Assembly: GCF_019931215.1 (NCBI RefSeq)
Contig: NZ_JAIOUB010000002.1
Location: forward strand, 124,001 to 188,000
Source of the DNA: Alcanivorax limicola
Lineage (GTDB): Bacteria > Pseudomonadota > Gammaproteobacteria > Pseudomonadales > Alcanivoracaceae
Direction of reading: 5' to 3'
DNA: 64,000 bases
The position numbers and the translations under genes were made by a program. The notes under the pieces are model-generated. The model saw nothing but the letters and a program-made list of their open reading frames with translations, made no database searches and was not told the origin of the DNA. Shown in pieces: positions 27,331-55,852 of this stretch. Each line of letters begins with the position of its first letter. The first letter of the stretch is position 1.

Positions 27331-28056
27331 ATGCGCCAGACGACGCCCCGATCAGCATCAACCACCATGCACCCTGCGGAGCGCCTGCTGCGCCAGGCCA
27401 GCTTCAGCATCAGTGCCCCGAAGCTGAGCCAGTGCCCCCCGGATGAGGGCTTCGAGGTCGCCTTTGCCGGCCGCTCCAACGCCGGCAAGTCCAGTGCCAT
27501 CAACCGCCTGACGGACCAGAAGAGCCTGGCGCGCACCTCCAAGACGCCGGGCCGCACCCAGCTGCTCAACTTCTTCACGCTGGATGAAACCCGCCGTCTT
27601 GTTGATCTGCCCGGCTACGGCTACGCCAAGGTCAACAAGGGCATGCGCGAGCAGTGGCAGCGCGACCTGGACGCCTATCTGGCCGGGCGCCAGTGCCTGC
27701 GTGGCCTGGTGCTGCTCATGGACATCCGCCACCCGCTCAAGGATTACGACCTGATGCTGGTGGACTGGGCCGCCAAGGCGCGCATGCCGCTGCACATCCT
27801 GCTTACCAAAGCTGACAAGCTCAGCCACGGGGCAGCCAAGACCACCCTGCTCAAAACCCGCCAGGCCCTGAAGAGCCACCCCGGGGAGCTCACGGTGCAG
27901 CTGTTTTCCGCCACCGCCAGCACCGGGCTGACCGACGCCTGGGACAAGCTGGCCGAATGGCTGGCGGTCACCGATGCCGCCGACACGCCTGAGGACACCC
28001 TTGTCGAAAGGGTCGAAAGCACTGCTGCCGAGCATGCCCCGCAAAAAAAACCCTGA
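27331..28056 (+). CDS. engB: Ribosome biogenesis GTP-binding protein EngB/YihA
   Basis: From the ATG at 27331 the protein has 241 aa; a TTG four codons earlier and an ATG at 27367 are alternatives, none with a strong ribosome binding site. GTPase motifs: GRSNAGKS (P loop), the switch region [20 protein letters not shown], and FSAT. EngB/YsxC proteins assist 50S subunit assembly. The last codons include three overlapping A-rich codons (QKKP) that coincide with the U tract of an antisense small-RNA terminator. The gene is divergent from cytochrome c5 as in Pseudomonas. Confidence 0.94.
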
Positions 28057-28188
28057 CAGCGCATATCGAGGGGGGATTGATGCTGCTGCCAGGGTAGCTT
28101 GCTGCCACCGGCGCGAGGGGAACGCGCCAGCGCTATCCACTGCAGCCCGGCAGAGATCGGGGGGGGATCGGGGGAACCGCGCCGCAGT
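28043..28188 (-). ncRNA. Candidate small RNA 2 (downstream copy) in the polA-engB gap
   Basis: On the minus strand, about 146 nt: (1) a bulged stem closing CCCCC-GAT-CCCCCCCC (complement of 28159-28174); (2) GGCGCG/CGCGCC (28110-28128) with loop TTCCCCT; (3) GGTGGC/GCTACC (28093-28109) with loop AGCAA; (4) terminator stem (28051-28060 with 28085-28094, one G-U pair), 24-nt loop holding CCCCCC, followed by U8 (28043-28050). A -10-like AATAAT is at the complement of 28195-28200; no good -35 was found (TTGACG lies 21 bases upstream of it). The order and loops match the other copy at 28459-28610. The 3' end overlaps the engB stop region antisense. Confidence 0.78.
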
Positions 28189-28458
28189 AATTGGATTATT
28201 GCCCCAGCGCCGTGAAACACTCGTCAAACCTGCGTTTACCCCACCGCAACGGCCTCCGGCGGAGCAATCGTCGCGCAGCGTCAGACAGTGTCACAGCAGG
28301 TCACCTGATCGATGCCACAGCGGGGCATACGCGGGGCACTCACTCGAGCACTCGGGCAGATCCGGGCAGCAAACATGCGGGTGACGTGATCTTGGCACGG
28401 CTTTTGCTGCATCTATAACAGCCAGCCTGTGGAACTCCCGGGGAGGAAATCTGCAGGC
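28189..28458. other. Spacer between the two candidate small RNAs
   Basis: No gene is seen in these 270 bases. They contain the palindrome CAGGTCACCTG (28297-28307), GC-rich imperfect repeats around CGGGGCA (28320-28340), and the sigma-54 promoter listed separately. The palindrome and repeats could be activator sites for that promoter, but no known motif was matched. Confidence 0.4.
28392..28408 (+). promoter_or_regulatory. Sigma-54 (RpoN) -24/-12 promoter
   Basis: TTGGCACGGCTTTTGCT matches the RpoN consensus (TGGCAC, five bases, TTGCT), with the invariant GG (28394-28395) and GC (28406-28407) exactly 10 bases apart. Transcription would start near 28420 and run rightward, antisense to the candidate small RNA at 28459-28610. 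No open reading frame follows closely. Confidence 0.7.
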
Positions 28459-28610
28459 AAAAAAAATCCCTGGCAGCAAATCGGGGGAAGGGAACGACTG
28501 CGCTGCCAGGGAGGCTTGCCGCCTCCAGTTCTTTGGGGGAAGAACCAGAGACTAAAAAAGCTACGGACCGGCGAGGGTTACTGGGGGATCGGGGGGTACC
28601 GCTCCGTAGC
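28459..28610 (-). ncRNA. Candidate small RNA 1 (upstream copy) in the polA-engB gap
   Basis: On the minus strand, about 152 nt: (1) perfect 8-bp stem GCTACGGA/TCCGTAGC (28603-28610 with 28560-28567) enclosing CCCCCC-GAT-CCCCC; (2) GTTCTT/AAGAAC with loop CCCCCA (28528-28545); (3) GGAGGC/GCCTCC with loop GGCAA (28510-28526); (4) terminator stem CCTGGCAGC/GCTGCCAGG (28468-28477 with 28502-28511), 24-nt loop with CCCTTCCCCC, then U8 (28459-28466). The predicted start coincides with the first stem. Position and orientation relative to polA and engB match spf/csrC of E. coli and ersA of Pseudomonas. No protein is encoded. Confidence 0.82.
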
Positions 28611-28615
28611 TGTTG

Positions 28616-28645
28616 TTATGATGCACCGAACCGGCGTTAAGTTCC
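28616..28645 (-). promoter_or_regulatory. Candidate AlgU/RpoE-type promoter of small RNA 1
   Basis: On the minus strand GGAACTT (complement of 28639-28645), 17 bases, TCATAA (complement of 28616-28621). The first element is a perfect extracytoplasmic sigma-E/AlgU -35; the second is a partial match to the TCTGA/TCAAA -10. The start would fall near 28610, the first base of the small RNA's first stem. Confidence 0.5.
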
Positions 28646-28939
28646 TGCTTTTCGGTGAGACCGCGTTCAATATTTTGCGACTTTTACAGATTTTACCTCA
28701 GCACACTTATCCAACCGCTTGTTTGTTCATCCGCACCGACATTCCCGCCGTGCAATCTGCCAACTCGATCACGCTTCGCCTCCTGCTCTCTCATCCAAAC
28801 AGGTGACTGGCCTCCCCCATACAGGGGATCAGCGCCGCTATCGCATTGTGCCCCCACCGACAGCCACCTACTCTCGCTGTCGCGCCGCAGCGGCCCCTCG
28901 ATTGCGGCCATACCCTGACAAAACATAAGGACATACACC
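28646..28939. other. Non-coding stretch before the exported-protein gene
   Basis: About 290 bases with lower GC than its surroundings. No convincing gene, repeat or promoter was seen apart from the small-RNA promoter at its left end; AAGGA lies 7 bases before the next start codon. Confidence 0.4.
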
Positions 28940-29449
28940 ATGTTGAACCGATTGCTTGCATTGATCACCGCCGCCCTGCTGCTGTCCGCCACCGCCCACG
29001 CCGCCGAACAGCCCGGCGAAGGCGACTTCGCGCTTTTTCTGACACAGCCTTTCAGCAGCAACAGCCTGGAGAGCTTTGGCGCCTCCGGCCCGACCTATAA
29101 CCTCGGCATGTTCCTGAGCGATGATCTGATGGCCTACGGCAGCCTGCGCATCGTCAACGCTGACGGCAATACCAACCTGGGCCTGGGCGGCGGCGCGCGC
29201 ATCTATCAGGATTTCGGCGCGCCTTACCTGCGCACCTTTTTCGACGGCAGCCTGAGCTACACCTCGCTGGACGATGGTGACGGCAGCTTCAACATCCTGC
29301 AGCTCGGTGGTTTCTTCGGTACCGAATTCAACCTGGCGCCGCGCGCCAGCCTCGCGGTACGTGTCGGCGCCACCTTCACCGACGTGGATGGCGATTTCAA
29401 CATCCTGGATCTGGGCGCCGCAGATGTGTTGCTGAGCGTCTACTTCTGA
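28940..29449 (+). CDS. Unrecognised small exported protein, probably outer-membrane barrel-like
   Basis: The 169-aa protein has a signal peptide (MLNRLLALITAALLLSATAHA, cleavage after AHA). The mature part alternates short polar turns with amphipathic strands (NLGMFLSDDLMAYGSL, NLGLGGGARIY, YLRTFFDGSLSYTSL, ASLAVRVGATFT) and ends in aromatic Phe after Tyr (LLSVYF). This suggests a small beta-barrel of the outer membrane. It shows an internal echo: GDGSFNILQLGG and GDFNILDLGA. No named family was recognised. It stands alone between the small-RNA region and polA. Confidence 0.65.
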   Translation: MLNRLLALITAALLLSATAHAAEQPGEGDFALFLTQPFSSNSLESFGASGPTYNLGMFLSDDLMAYGSLRIVNADGNTNLGLGGGARIYQDFGAPYLRTFFDGSLSYTSLDDGDGSFNILQLGGFFGTEFNLAPRASLAVRVGATFTDVDGDFNILDLGAADVLLSVYF

Positions 29450-29500: not shown

Positions 29501-32302
29501 TCAGTGGGCCTGATCCCAGTTGTCACCGACGCCGGGGTCTACCACCAGCGGCACACGCAAGTCGGCCGCGTTGCACATCAGCGCCGACACCTCCTTGATC
29601 AGCGCCTCCACATCCTGCTCCGCCACTTCAAATACCAGCTCATCATGCACCTGCATGATCATCAGCGCTTTCAGTTCACTCTTCGCCAGCCAGGCATCGA
29701 CAGCAATCATGGCGCGCTTGATGATGTCCGCAGCAGTGCCCTGCATGGGCGCGTTGATCGCCGTCCGCTCCGCCGCCTGTCGCATGGCGCCGTTACGGCT
29801 GTTTATTTCCGGCAAATACAGCCGGCGACCGTAGAGCGTTTCCACATAGCCTTTTTCACCCGCATGCGCACGGGTGTTGTCCATGTACGCCTTGACGCCG
29901 GGGTAGCGCTGAAAATACAGATCGATATATTCCTGGGCTTCGCCCCGGGGAATACCCAACTGCCGCGCCAGACCAAACGCACTCATGCCATAGATCAGGC
30001 CGAAGTTGATCGCCTTGGCATTGCGGCGCTCATTATCACTGACCTCATCCGGCGTCTTGCCCCACACTTCTGCGGCGGTGGCGCGGTGAATATCCAGGCC
30101 TTTTGCGAACGCATCCAGCAGCCCTTTGTCGCCGCTGAGGTGCGCCATGATGCGCAGCTCGATCTGGGAATAATCCGCCGCGACTATTTTGCGGCCCGGC
30201 GGCGCCCGGAATGCCTGCCTGATGCGCCGGCCTTCCTCGCTGCGAATCGGAATATTCTGCAAATTGGGATCACTGGAAGACAAACGCCCCGTTGCCGCGA
30301 CAGCCTGATGATAAGACGTGTGCACGCGCCCCGTGCGCGGACGCACCATTTCAGGCAGGCGATCCGTATAGGTACTCTTGAGCTTCGACAGCTCACGGTA
30401 ATCCATGATGATCTGCGGCAGGGTGTGCCCGTCCAGCGCCAGCTCCTGCAACACCGCTTCTGCGGTAGAGGGCGCGCCTTTCGGTGTTTTCTTGATTACC
30501 GGAATCCCTTGCTCTTCATAAAGAATCGCACCGAGCTGTTTGGGGGAGCTGAGATTGAATTTTCGGCCGGCCTCGCTGAAGGCGTTTGCTTCCAGCTCGC
30601 CCATGCGCTTGGCCAGCTCCTGACTGTGCCGGCGCAGCATATCGACATCGACATAACAGCCGTTGCGCTCCAGCCGCGACAACACGCTGACCAGCGGCAT
30701 TTCGATATCGTGGAGTACGCTGACCAACGTCGGTATCGCTTCGAGCTTCGGCCACAGAGTGTCGTGCAGGCGCAGCGTAATATCTGCATCTTCGGCCGCA
30801 TAGGGCGCCGCATCGTCGATGGCGATCTGGTTGAAGGTCAACTGCTTGGCACCCTTGCCGGCAATATCCTTGAACGCAATATTCTTGTGCCCCAGATATT
30901 TCAGTGCCAGTGAATCCATATCATGACGGGTCGCCACCGAATCCAGCACATAGGACTCGAGCATGGTGTCAAACGCCACGCCTCCCAGATGCAGATCGTA
31001 CTGCGCCAGTACGCTCATATCGTATTTCAGGTTCTGGCCGACTTTCCTGTGCGCGTCGCTTTCCAGCAGTGGCTTGAGTTTTGCCAGCACCTCGTCACGA
31101 TCAAGCTGATCCGGCGCGCCGGGATAATCATGCGCCACCGGCACATAAGCGGCCTCGCCCGGGGCCACCGCAAACGACACCCCGACCAGTTCGGCGCGCA
31201 TGTAATCCAGACTGGTGGTTTCGGTATCAAAGGCAAACAGCGGCGCTTTTTTCAGTTTTTCTATCCATGCGTCCAGCGCCGCCATATCGGTAATGGTGTC
31301 ATAGTCTTCGCGACTGATAGCAGACGTTTCGTCGAGATTGCTCGTCTCTCCTGGCACGCCTCCCGACACCGCGCCCGAAGCCTCTTCTGCTGCCTGCGTC
31401 TCCCCGTCCTGCAATTCAGCAATCCAGCTCTTGAATTCCAGTGCGCGGTACTGCTCAATCAACGACGCCTTGTCGGGCGCCCCAAGCTTCAGATCATCCA
31501 GTGTTTCGTTGAGTGCGCAATCTACCTTGATGGTTGCCAGCTGATACGACAGGAACGCCTGCTCGCGGTGCTCTTCAAGCTTCTTCGCCAAGGTCTTGGC
31601 ACCGCGAATCGTCAGCCCGGACACCTTGTCCAGGTTGGCATAAATCGCATCCATGGAACCGATGCCCTGGAGCAGACCGAGCGCGGTTTTTTCGCCGACA
31701 CCGGGCACGCCCGGGATGTTGTCTACCTTGTCGCCCATCAGCGCCAGCAGGTCGATGATCAACTCGGGGCCCACACCGAACTTGTCCACCACCGTGTCCT
31801 GGTTCAGGACTGTCCCGGTCATGGTGTTGACCAGTGTGATGCGCGCATCCACCAGCTGCGCCATATCCTTGTCGCCCGTGGAGATCACCACAGGTTGCCC
31901 GTTCGCCGCCGCCTGGCGCGCCAGCGTGCCGATCACGTCATCCGCCTCGACACCCTCTTCAACGATCAGCGGCAATCCCATGGCGCGGATCACGTCATAT
32001 AACGGCTCGACCTGCGCGCGCAGCTCATCCGGCATCGGCGGGCGCTGCGCCTTGTACTGTTCGAACAGCTCGTCACGGAAGGTCTTGCCCTTGGCATCGA
32101 ACACCACCGCCATCTGCTCGGGCTGATAATCCGCCAGCAGTTTGCGCAACATGCTGATCACGCCTCGAATAGCGCCTGTGGGCTGGCCAGAGGACGCCAT
32201 TAACGGCGGCAGAGCATGGAAGGCCCGGTAAAGGTAGGAGGAGCCGTCCACCAGAACGACGGCTTTTTGATCAGGCTGCTGGCCAGATTCGTGATCAGAC
32301 AT
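29501..32302 (-). CDS. polA: DNA polymerase I
   Basis: The start at 32302 (MSDHESGQQ) gives 933 aa, close to 928 in E. coli; the frame is open 16 codons further. All three domains are present: 5'-3' exonuclease/flap domain ([18 protein letters not shown] through the helix-hairpin-helix [13 protein letters not shown]), 3'-5' proofreading domain with intact [13 protein letters not shown], and the polymerase with [16 protein letters not shown] (motif A), [16 protein letters not shown] (motif B) and [10 protein letters not shown] (motif C). It works in Okazaki fragment maturation and excision repair. It is divergent from thrB. Confidence 0.97.
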
Positions 32303-32398
32303 GAGCTGGGGTGTCCGCAGTTTTATTGAGGGAGCATATGGATAGAGCATCTTGCCGCAGTGCCGACAGAATGCAAAGGCGGCCCCCGTGCCCCGGTT

Positions 32399-54175: not shown

Positions 54176-55852
54176 TTAGTCGGATTCCGCGCGGTACTTT
54201 TCGCGCAACCGGTTTCGAATGCTGATCGCCGTGAGATTCAGCACCACGATAATGCCCACCAGCACCAGAGCGGTGGCATATACCAGCGGCCGCGCCGCCT
54301 CGGCATTCGGGCTCTGGAAGCCGACATCATAAATGTGGAAGCCCAGGTGCATGATCTTGCGGTCGAGATGAATGAACGGGAAGTAGCTGTCCACCGGCAA
54401 CGTCGGTGCCAGCTTCACCACCCCGACCAGCATCAGCGGCGCCACTTCACCGGCAGCCCGTGCAATCGCCAGAATCATGCCGGTCATCATCGCCGGTGTC
54501 GCCAGCGGCACGACCACCCGCCACAGGGTTTCAGCCTTGGTCGCACCCAGCGCCAGCGAGCCCTGGCGAATGGTGCTGGGAATCCGCGACAAGCCTTCTT
54601 CGGTGGATACGATAACCACCGGCAGTGTCAGCAGCGCCAGCGTCAATGACGCCCACATCAGGCCGGGCGTACCGAATGTCGGCGCCGGCAAGGATTCAGG
54701 GTAGAACAGCTGATCAATGCTGCCACCAATGGTGTAGACAAAGAAGCCCAGACCAAACACCCCGTACACAATGGACGGCACACCCGCCAGGTTGTACACG
54801 GAGATTCTGATGGCGCGCAACAACGGCCCTTGTCTGGCGTACTCGCGCAGGTAAATAGCCGCCAGCACACCGAACGGCGTCACCACCAGGCTCATGATGA
54901 AGACCATGGTGACGGTGCCAAAAATGGCCGGGAAAATACCGCCTTCAGTGTTCGCCTCCCGTGGATTGCCGCTCATGAATTCCCAGAAGCGATCCACATA
55001 ATTGGCCATCTTGCCGAACAGGGACAATTGATTGGGCTGCGTAACGCGCACGATATCGCGCAGACTGATACGCATCTCCCTGCCATCTGCCGTCAACGCC
55101 AGCAGGGTATCCCGGCTGGCTTCGACATTCAGTTGATCCAGACGCTGCTGAATCACCGCGTACTCATCATCCAGCGCCTGGCGGCCACTCTCCAGTTCAG
55201 CAACCCGTGCCGCTTTTTCCTCTTCCGAGAGGCGATCATTGAGTGCGATGCGGCGGGAGCCCAGCCGGATCTGTTCCATGCGGTAGTTGATGTCGCCGAT
55301 ATCGCTGCGTTCGATCTTGTTGATCTCATCACGGATGCTCAGCGCGCGCGCCATGCGGTTGCGCAGTTCGACCATGACTGCGTCGCCCTCGGCCACGATG
55401 ACATCGCCTTCCAGCACCGCCCGGGGCAGGCCATAGAAATTGCCCCACTCGCGCCGCTCTATCACTACAGCGTCAGCCGGCCTGCTCATCTCGCCCATGG
55501 CGGGCTGCAGGTACCACATGAAATCACGGCTGGTCACATCCCGGTTACCGCGTTTGATCAGGAAGCGGGTAACCAGATCATCCGGCTGCGCCAGATCCGG
55601 GCGGCCGGAATCAATCACGATAGTGCCGGCCAGTGTCTGACTGCGCACCACCTCGCCCATGACCACTTCCTGCGTGCCATCACGCTGCGTGTAGTCAAAC
55701 TGCACAATGGGTGCCGGCCAGAAATGCGCCAGACCGCGTACCGCAATCAACCCCAACAACCCGGCGACCATCACGATACTGAGCGCGACCGCCCCGCCGT
55801 TCAGCCAGATCCAGGGGGTGCCACTTTTAAACCAGCCTTGTTTCTTGCTCAT
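54176..55852 (-). CDS. pstA: Phosphate ABC transporter permease PstA, long type
   Basis: At 558 aa this is far longer than the ~296 aa of E. coli PstA. After the first membrane helix (ALSIVMVAGLLGLIAVRG) comes an approximately 240-residue periplasmic insert with a heptad-like middle (ARVAELESGRQALDDEYAVIQQRLDQLN). The standard permease part then begins at GIFPAIFGTVTMVFIMSLVVTPFGVLAAIYL, with the EAA-type loop LGATKAETLWRVVVPLATPAMMTG. Pseudomonas has similarly long PstA. Confidence 0.93.
   Translation of the reverse strand: MSKKQGWFKSGTPWIWLNGGAVALSIVMVAGLLGLIAVRGLAHFWPAPIVQFDYTQRDGTQEVVMGEVVRSQTLAGTIVIDSGRPDLAQPDDLVTRFLIKRGNRDVTSRDFMWYLQPAMGEMSRPADAVVIERREWGNFYGLPRAVLEGDVIVAEGDAVMVELRNRMARALSIRDEINKIERSDIGDINYRMEQIRLGSRRIALNDRLSEEEKAARVAELESGRQALDDEYAVIQQRLDQLNVEASRDTLLALTADGREMRISLRDIVRVTQPNQLSLFGKMANYVDRFWEFMSGNPREANTEGGIFPAIFGTVTMVFIMSLVVTPFGVLAAIYLREYARQGPLLRAIRISVYNLAGVPSIVYGVFGLGFFVYTIGGSIDQLFYPESLPAPTFGTPGLMWASLTLALLTLPVVIVSTEEGLSRIPSTIRQGSLALGATKAETLWRVVVPLATPAMMTGMILAIARAAGEVAPLMLVGVVKLAPTLPVDSYFPFIHLDRKIMHLGFHIYDVGFQSPNAEAARPLVYATALVLVGIIVVLNLTAISIRNRLREKYRAESD

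Follow-up and report, generated by a model that had tools for sequence, protein, structure and literature searches.

What is encoded between polA and engB in Alcanivorax limicola, and are its products related to small RNAs known from other bacteria? In the stretch of DNA analysed here (64,000 nt, hereafter the window), two non-coding segments on the minus strand, copies A and B, lie in tandem in the direction of polA and converge with engB. This gene layout, as well as the position of both segments, agrees with the first-pass annotation. Copies A and B are structured RNAs of one family, for which a covariance model of its own (R1) was built. The features of the locus are as follows.

29501..32350, minus strand: polA, neighbour gene upstream of the RNAs and in the same direction
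28681..28697, minus strand: conserved element GGTAAAATCTGTAAAAG upstream of the distal copy, from flank alignments
28639..28645, minus strand: predicted -35 region of copy A, GGAACTT, sigma-E/AlgU type
28616..28621, minus strand: predicted -10 region of copy A, TCATAA, spacer 17
28459..28611, minus strand: copy A small RNA, 152.4 bits with R1, U8 ending at 28459
28560..28610, minus strand: SL1 of copy A with CCCCCC-GAT-CCCCC in the loop, from fold and covariation
28521..28552, minus strand: SL2 of copy A with a C5 loop, from fold and covariation
28467..28512, minus strand: SL3 of copy A, the terminator stem with a C-tract loop, followed by U8, from fold and covariation
28043..28188, minus strand: copy B small RNA, 104.3 bits with R1, U8 ending at 28043
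28139..28188, minus strand: SL1 of copy B with CCCCC-GAT-CCCCCCCC in the loop, from the fold
28106..28132, minus strand: SL2 of copy B with a C4 loop, from the fold
28050..28095, minus strand: SL3 of copy B, the terminator stem with C6 in the loop region, from the fold
27403..28056, plus strand: engB (PF01926), convergent with the RNAs and beside the RNA across the family

At its 3' end (28043-28056), copy B overlaps the final codons of engB with its U-run and the end of its stem. In the R1 search no third copy was detected in the window's genome, the next match reaching 16.5 bits; a stray match within the window scored 13.2 bits.

Copy A has a predicted folding energy of -65.9 kcal/mol (z -6.24) and copy B one of -68.1 kcal/mol (z -3.78), and for each copy none of 200 shuffles was as low. 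Both predicted folds contain the elements described earlier, i.e., a first stem with two C-tracts split by GAT, a second stem with a C loop whose arms differ between the copies and still pair, and a terminator stem that has a C-tract in its loop and is followed by U8. RNAalifold on 45 aligned copies yielded 33 consensus pairs, of which 26 show two-sided compensatory change. Among the 42 distinct rows, 93.7% of the cells pair in the three-hairpin structure, and none of 500 shuffles attained any of five measures for it. Slid versions reached a pairing of only 29-49%, a comparison in which the three-hairpin structure has the advantage of being derived from the same alignment. Invariant across the aligned copies are most C residues of the SL1 tracts together with GAT, and three C residues of the SL2 loop. 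Thus the stems covary among relatives, and selected RNA structure with conserved loops on changing stems, as originally proposed, is confirmed by the 45 copies. Weaker support exists for a further proposed stem with a GCAA loop (GGAGGC-GGCAA-GCCTCC): its arms can pair (75.8% of cells in 45 relatives), but 70.3% pair with the partner slid by +3, two of six pairs changed on both sides, a count equalled by 85 of 500 shuffles, and in the predicted folds these arms are mostly taken up by SL2 and the terminator.

The RNA itself is already known. In 2022, sRNA4758272 was detected by RNA sequencing in Alcanivorax dieselolei B-5 between a GTP-binding protein gene and the gene of antiporter subunit G, and the sRNAs of this strain take their names from their 5' ends (PMC9788540). 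In genome G019, SL1 is predicted to begin at C1:4758272, and antiporter subunit G (PF03334) is encoded by the adjacent gene. Since the coordinates agree to the base, we take G019 to be B-5. By position, first base and neighbours, sRNA4758272 is the same RNA as the window family, but it occurs as a single copy in its genome versus two in the window. Homology to this mapped start sets the 5' end of copy A at 28611, previously given as 28610. The occurrence of two copies in some species was already noted, and in a looser BLASTN comparison against the Oceanospirillales most intergenic B-5 sRNAs stayed Alcanivorax-specific (PMC9788540). The published orthologous transcript, beginning at the homologous base, strengthens the proposal of two selected structured RNAs. 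The remark that the layout was not a recognised one holds for the fold, which was not seen in the accessible text of the B-5 study, and fails for the RNA and its two-copy state, both printed in 2022 (PMC9788540). The same text gives no structure, promoter class or link to ErsA for sRNA4758272. A literature search, with subscription papers mostly outside its reach, returned no paper joining Alcanivorax with ErsA, and by title only the B-5 study was relevant for Alcanivorax, sRNA and polA. As far as these sources go, the fold, the promoter class and the likely kin of the RNA are new here.

How widely the RNA occurs was followed through EngB, which was matched in 57 of 57 relatives at E <=0.001, the RNA then being sought beside engB; judged by E-value, the matches in G037, G042 and G046 are other GTPases. 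The family of the window (Alcanivorax and kin) comprises 36 genomes here, and 33 of them have the RNA beside engB, with 46 copies in total. In the remaining three (G012, G013, G023) engB lies at a contig end, and the R1 search located the copy of G013 at the end of a different contig. Counted within the stretches read beside engB, two copies occur in four and one copy in three of the seven genomes of the window genus, one copy in all 10 genomes of genus g3, two in all eight of g8, and one in all six of g4, g5 and g6. In genus g2, G007 has two copies; G014 has one, and its contig stops soon after it. Among named genomes, a DNA pattern of the RNA was found in 26 stretches, assigned to Alcanivorax, Alloalcanivorax, Alcanivoracaceae and, once, Pseudomonadales. 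The RNA lies between polA and engB in the window and in six other genomes of the window genus. In the other genera of the family, polA was not found within the stretches read, which are no longer than about 2.8 kb, and engB alone adjoins the RNA. In G009 and G017 the RNA is co-oriented with engB. In G011 (L067 2255-2443, z -6.90) the RNA is 189 nt long and has an extra C-loop hairpin, as if that hairpin were a working unit. In the tree, near copies fall next to the other copies of the same genus, with low support in most cases, and the hypothesis that all second copies form one clade is not rejected (p 0.305; p 0.11 including the g2 rows). The tree thus leans towards separate duplications within the family, with one origin not rejected.

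Upstream of the RNAs, a promoter score out of 10 was composed of GGAACTT and TC..A. All copies except one (45 of 46) score 9 or 10 with a spacing of 16 or 17, the TC being situated 8-11 bases ahead of the RNA as bounded in this analysis; among 1840 shuffled flanks, 0.65% scored at least 9. Judged by these motifs, 45 of the 46 copies are preceded by a predicted sigma-E/AlgU-type promoter, GGAACTT-N16/17-TC, which would answer to sigma-E. The window's genome encodes one RpoE above the curated cut-off (312.7 bits), and an Hfq gene is present as well. Further upstream, GGTAAAATCTGTAAAAG is kept amid otherwise poorly conserved flanks. TGTAAAA occurs upstream of all 10 g3 copies, all eight distal copies of g8 and five of the seven distal copies of the window genus, the remaining two having TGAAAAA; it is absent from all 12 second copies found in g1 and g8, as well as from the nine copies of other genera. 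The distance from the start of TGTAAAA to the -35 region is 41-43 bases in the window genus and 20-21 in both g3 and g8 (an outlying 37 for G028 represents a second match of TGTAAAA); the genera differ by about two turns of the helix, which would suit binding of an activator.

The sole exception among the 46 copies is copy B of the window, with a promoter score of 5. In three relatives of the same genus (G001, G004, G005) the B copies retain the sigma-E-type promoter. A TTGACG...TTCAC box is common to all four B copies and lies 23 bases upstream of SL1 in the window, and 84, 72 and 72 bases upstream in G001, G004 and G005, respectively; judging from these distances, the leader of the window's copy B lacks 49-61 bases, promoter included. 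With the promoter-bearing stretch gone in the window genome, copy B would be either under another promoter or poorly expressed. A promoter scan returned no sigma-70 promoter for copy B; by eye, TTGACG-N18-GGCAAT ahead of it would place a weak start near 28190. The missing promoter and leader bases, a long branch in the tree and an R1 score of 104.3 versus 152.4 bits for copy A may be read as signs that copy B is a decaying leftover without function. We consider this doubtful, because its three stems are intact, both arms of SL2 have been rewritten relative to G001 with the stem still pairing, and its score is near those of the other B copies (111.4-128.6 bits).

Regarding the origin of the family, the earlier comparison with ErsA (Pseudomon-1, RF01719) proved the useful one. 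Copy A matches RF01719 with 19.8 bits (E 0.33) and does not reach the gathering cut-off of 50 bits, and the best score in the family, 37.6 bits in G007, is likewise below it. Among 194 genomes of the order searched with RF01719, 17 gave a match, seven of them above the cut-off and taken to be Pseudomonadaceae; the one match in the family is the near copy of G007 (E 1.2e-5 for that genome). In a scan of 15 family loci against the whole of Rfam, RF01719 appeared at three, namely G007 (E 7e-4 and 0.66), G014 (E 0.0086) and G025 (E 0.28), and 12 were without a match to it at E <=1. At G007 and G014 the alignment spans the C-loop SL2, the C-loop terminator and the tail. As competitors, anti-hemB recurs weakly at four of the 15 loci (E 0.034 to 0.99) and ar14 occurs at one (E 0.2). 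At copies A and B, minus-strand matches to Scr3202, tfoR, mir-23 and anti-hemB (E 0.26 to 2.4) were dismissed as chance likeness of C-rich hairpins.

Outside the family, 12 of the 16 genomes with RF01719 were read, giving 14 ErsA-type copies, all of which have GAACTT upstream by eye; polA is present in nine and engB in seven of these 12 stretches. Like ErsA, the family RNA occupies the polA-engB slot (in the window genus), follows a GAACTT...TC promoter, and has a C-loop SL2 and a C-loop terminator, followed by a U-run and GCCTG. Unlike ErsA, it scores below the gathering cut-off, often occurs in two copies, and lacks the U-rich single-stranded block TGTGTTnAGTGTTGGCA, in place of which it has a large 5' hairpin with two C-tracts. 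This block is present in all 12 RF01719 loci read in other families (in one by eye, with an inserted base) and in none of the 46 family copies with up to three substitutions allowed. The promoter of ErsA is of the sigma-22 (AlgU) type, and its targets include the algC, oprD, amrZ and anr mRNAs. As far as the accessible texts go, pairing with amrZ is predicted to involve the U-rich region of ErsA, which was tested via mRNA changes (PMC5819304), and pairing with anr is predicted there as well (PMC8575079), with regulation of amrZ being independent of Hfq (PMC5819304) and activation of anr dependent on it (PMC8575079).

In the reverse direction, R1 was run over the same 194 genomes and matched eight outside the family at E <=0.01 (G133, G210, G109, G137, G142, G164, G208, and G036). 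The match in G133, from another family, coincides with that of RF01719, and the match in G210 lies between polA and engB. In case of G109 (L110 2037-2136), the match is situated between engB and polA on the strand opposite to polA and shows no clear GAACTT promoter by eye. For G137, G142, G164, and G208, neither polA nor engB occurs in the stretches read. Weak E-values of R1 are rough, since it also matches away from polA and engB (G003 C7, 24.2 bits). On the 12 chosen RF01719 loci, R1 scored 16.2-26.7 bits at nine and gave no match at E <=1 at three. Tandem pairs of RF01719 matches were also observed in family f8 (G193, L115 1986-2306; G214, L116 2006-2329), each copy with its own GGAACTT promoter. 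These pairs have retained the U-rich block and thus probably arose by a duplication of their own.

The absence of that block from all 46 copies, the low score of copy A and an R1 noise level of up to 24 bits would fit an unrelated C-loop RNA that replaced ErsA and has only the slot, the promoter class and a generic C-loop terminator in common with it. Such convergence appears rather unlikely, given the significant RF01719 matches that cover SL2, terminator and tail in G007 and G014, the coincidence of both models at one place in G133, and the same promoter type in 14 of 14 ErsA-type copies. As slot, promoter and 3' half agree, we regard the family RNA as kin of ErsA, though not as a member of RF01719 as curated.

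Spot 42 and CsrC of E. coli are encoded in the same polA-yihA neighbourhood, and their comparison with the present RNAs had been suggested as well. It was abandoned, since neither Spot 42 (RF00021) nor CsrC, nor RsmZ, is among the 11 Rfam matches of the window up to E 10. Several like hairpins per RNA, increased by duplication and by one extra in G011, might indicate a sponge that titrates CsrA/RsmA or another protein in the manner of CsrB/CsrC or RsmZ, without pairing, but this was rejected as highly improbable since, besides the missing CsrC and RsmZ matches, no hairpin loop of A or B contains GGA (in copy A, GGA occurs three times, always within a stem, and in copy B once, within a linker). 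A likeness by description exists to LhrC1-5 of Listeria and NgncR_162/163 of Neisseria, which according to the available accounts are multicopy sibling sRNAs, LhrC being induced by cell envelope stress; no kinship in sequence, slot or promoter is claimed. LhrC and NgncR_162/163 have C-rich single strands.

Taken together, copies A and B are probably ErsA-related trans-acting sRNAs with C loops that pair with G-rich ribosome-binding sites, copy A being driven by envelope stress. For copy A, transcription would depend on a sigma-E/AlgU-type promoter of its own and most likely occur during envelope stress. The three hairpins would keep the C-rich loops open, the last one doubling as terminator, and its U8 tail would suit Hfq. 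Pairing of the C loops with G-rich ribosome-binding sites may then alter translation or stability of target mRNAs, and copy B would be a duplicate that has diverged and retains loops of the same type. Sigma-E control, use of Hfq, pairing of the C loops, the targets and expression in the window organism are inferred here.

Candidate targets were sought by complementarity to the loops in a limited set of searches, whose outcomes were negative or ambiguous and revealed no target. Complements of the SL3 loop are no commoner than those of a backward control (10 versus 10, one being the RNA gene itself). Ahead of ATG, GGGGGAAG or GGGGGATC gave 49 matches in two genomes; the controls gave 3 and 6 for GGGGGAAG, and 0 and 0 for GGGGGATC, whose backward form contains CTAG, which is generally rare. 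GGGGGATC is retained in one orthologue pair. GGGGGATCATAATG lies where a protein of 468 aa that has no Pfam match begins (L216-L221); it is identical in six of six same-genus orthologues and kept in none of 10 from other genera, four paralogues being set aside. It could pair with GAUCCCCC of SL1 and is a lead only, as it was chosen from 49 matches and is perhaps a plain Shine-Dalgarno sequence. Within the window, duplex energies with the C loops were computed for 55 crudely defined ORF leaders. Third strongest is the leader with GATCGGGGGATCCC at window position 55852 (minus strand), directly ahead of the ATG of a transport permease gene (PF00528). Between polA and the RNAs, 28940-29449 (plus strand) encodes a 169-aa protein without Pfam match that is outer-membrane-like by eye. 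Related frames occur in G001, G004 and G005, all with copy B, and were not found in the stretches of G002, G003 and G006, all without it. As a target this neighbour was discarded (-7.1 versus a median of -12.4 kcal/mol).

It is tempting to speculate, at a strength that remains tentative, that an ErsA-type RNA exchanged its single-stranded target block for reusable C-loop hairpins, with the duplicated genes then placed under different control. The hairpin would be the unit of change, added inside the RNA in G011 and multiplied by tandem doubling of whole genes, and the control of the copies would differ through the distal-only TGTAAAA and the loss of the near-copy promoter in the window. If this exchange took place, two different signals could be answered by the twins with a single set of loops directed at ribosome-binding sites.

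Alcanivorax-type bacteria are known marine alkane degraders, and in them an RNA that had been published under a number alone gains a fold, a promoter class and likely kin. The lineage of ErsA is extended beyond the Rfam model, and the family offers a natural series for the use of C loops, comprising one copy, two copies, an extra hairpin and a lost promoter. If the kinship is true, a stress RNA has here received a new part in place of the one that binds targets, with its slot and promoter kept.
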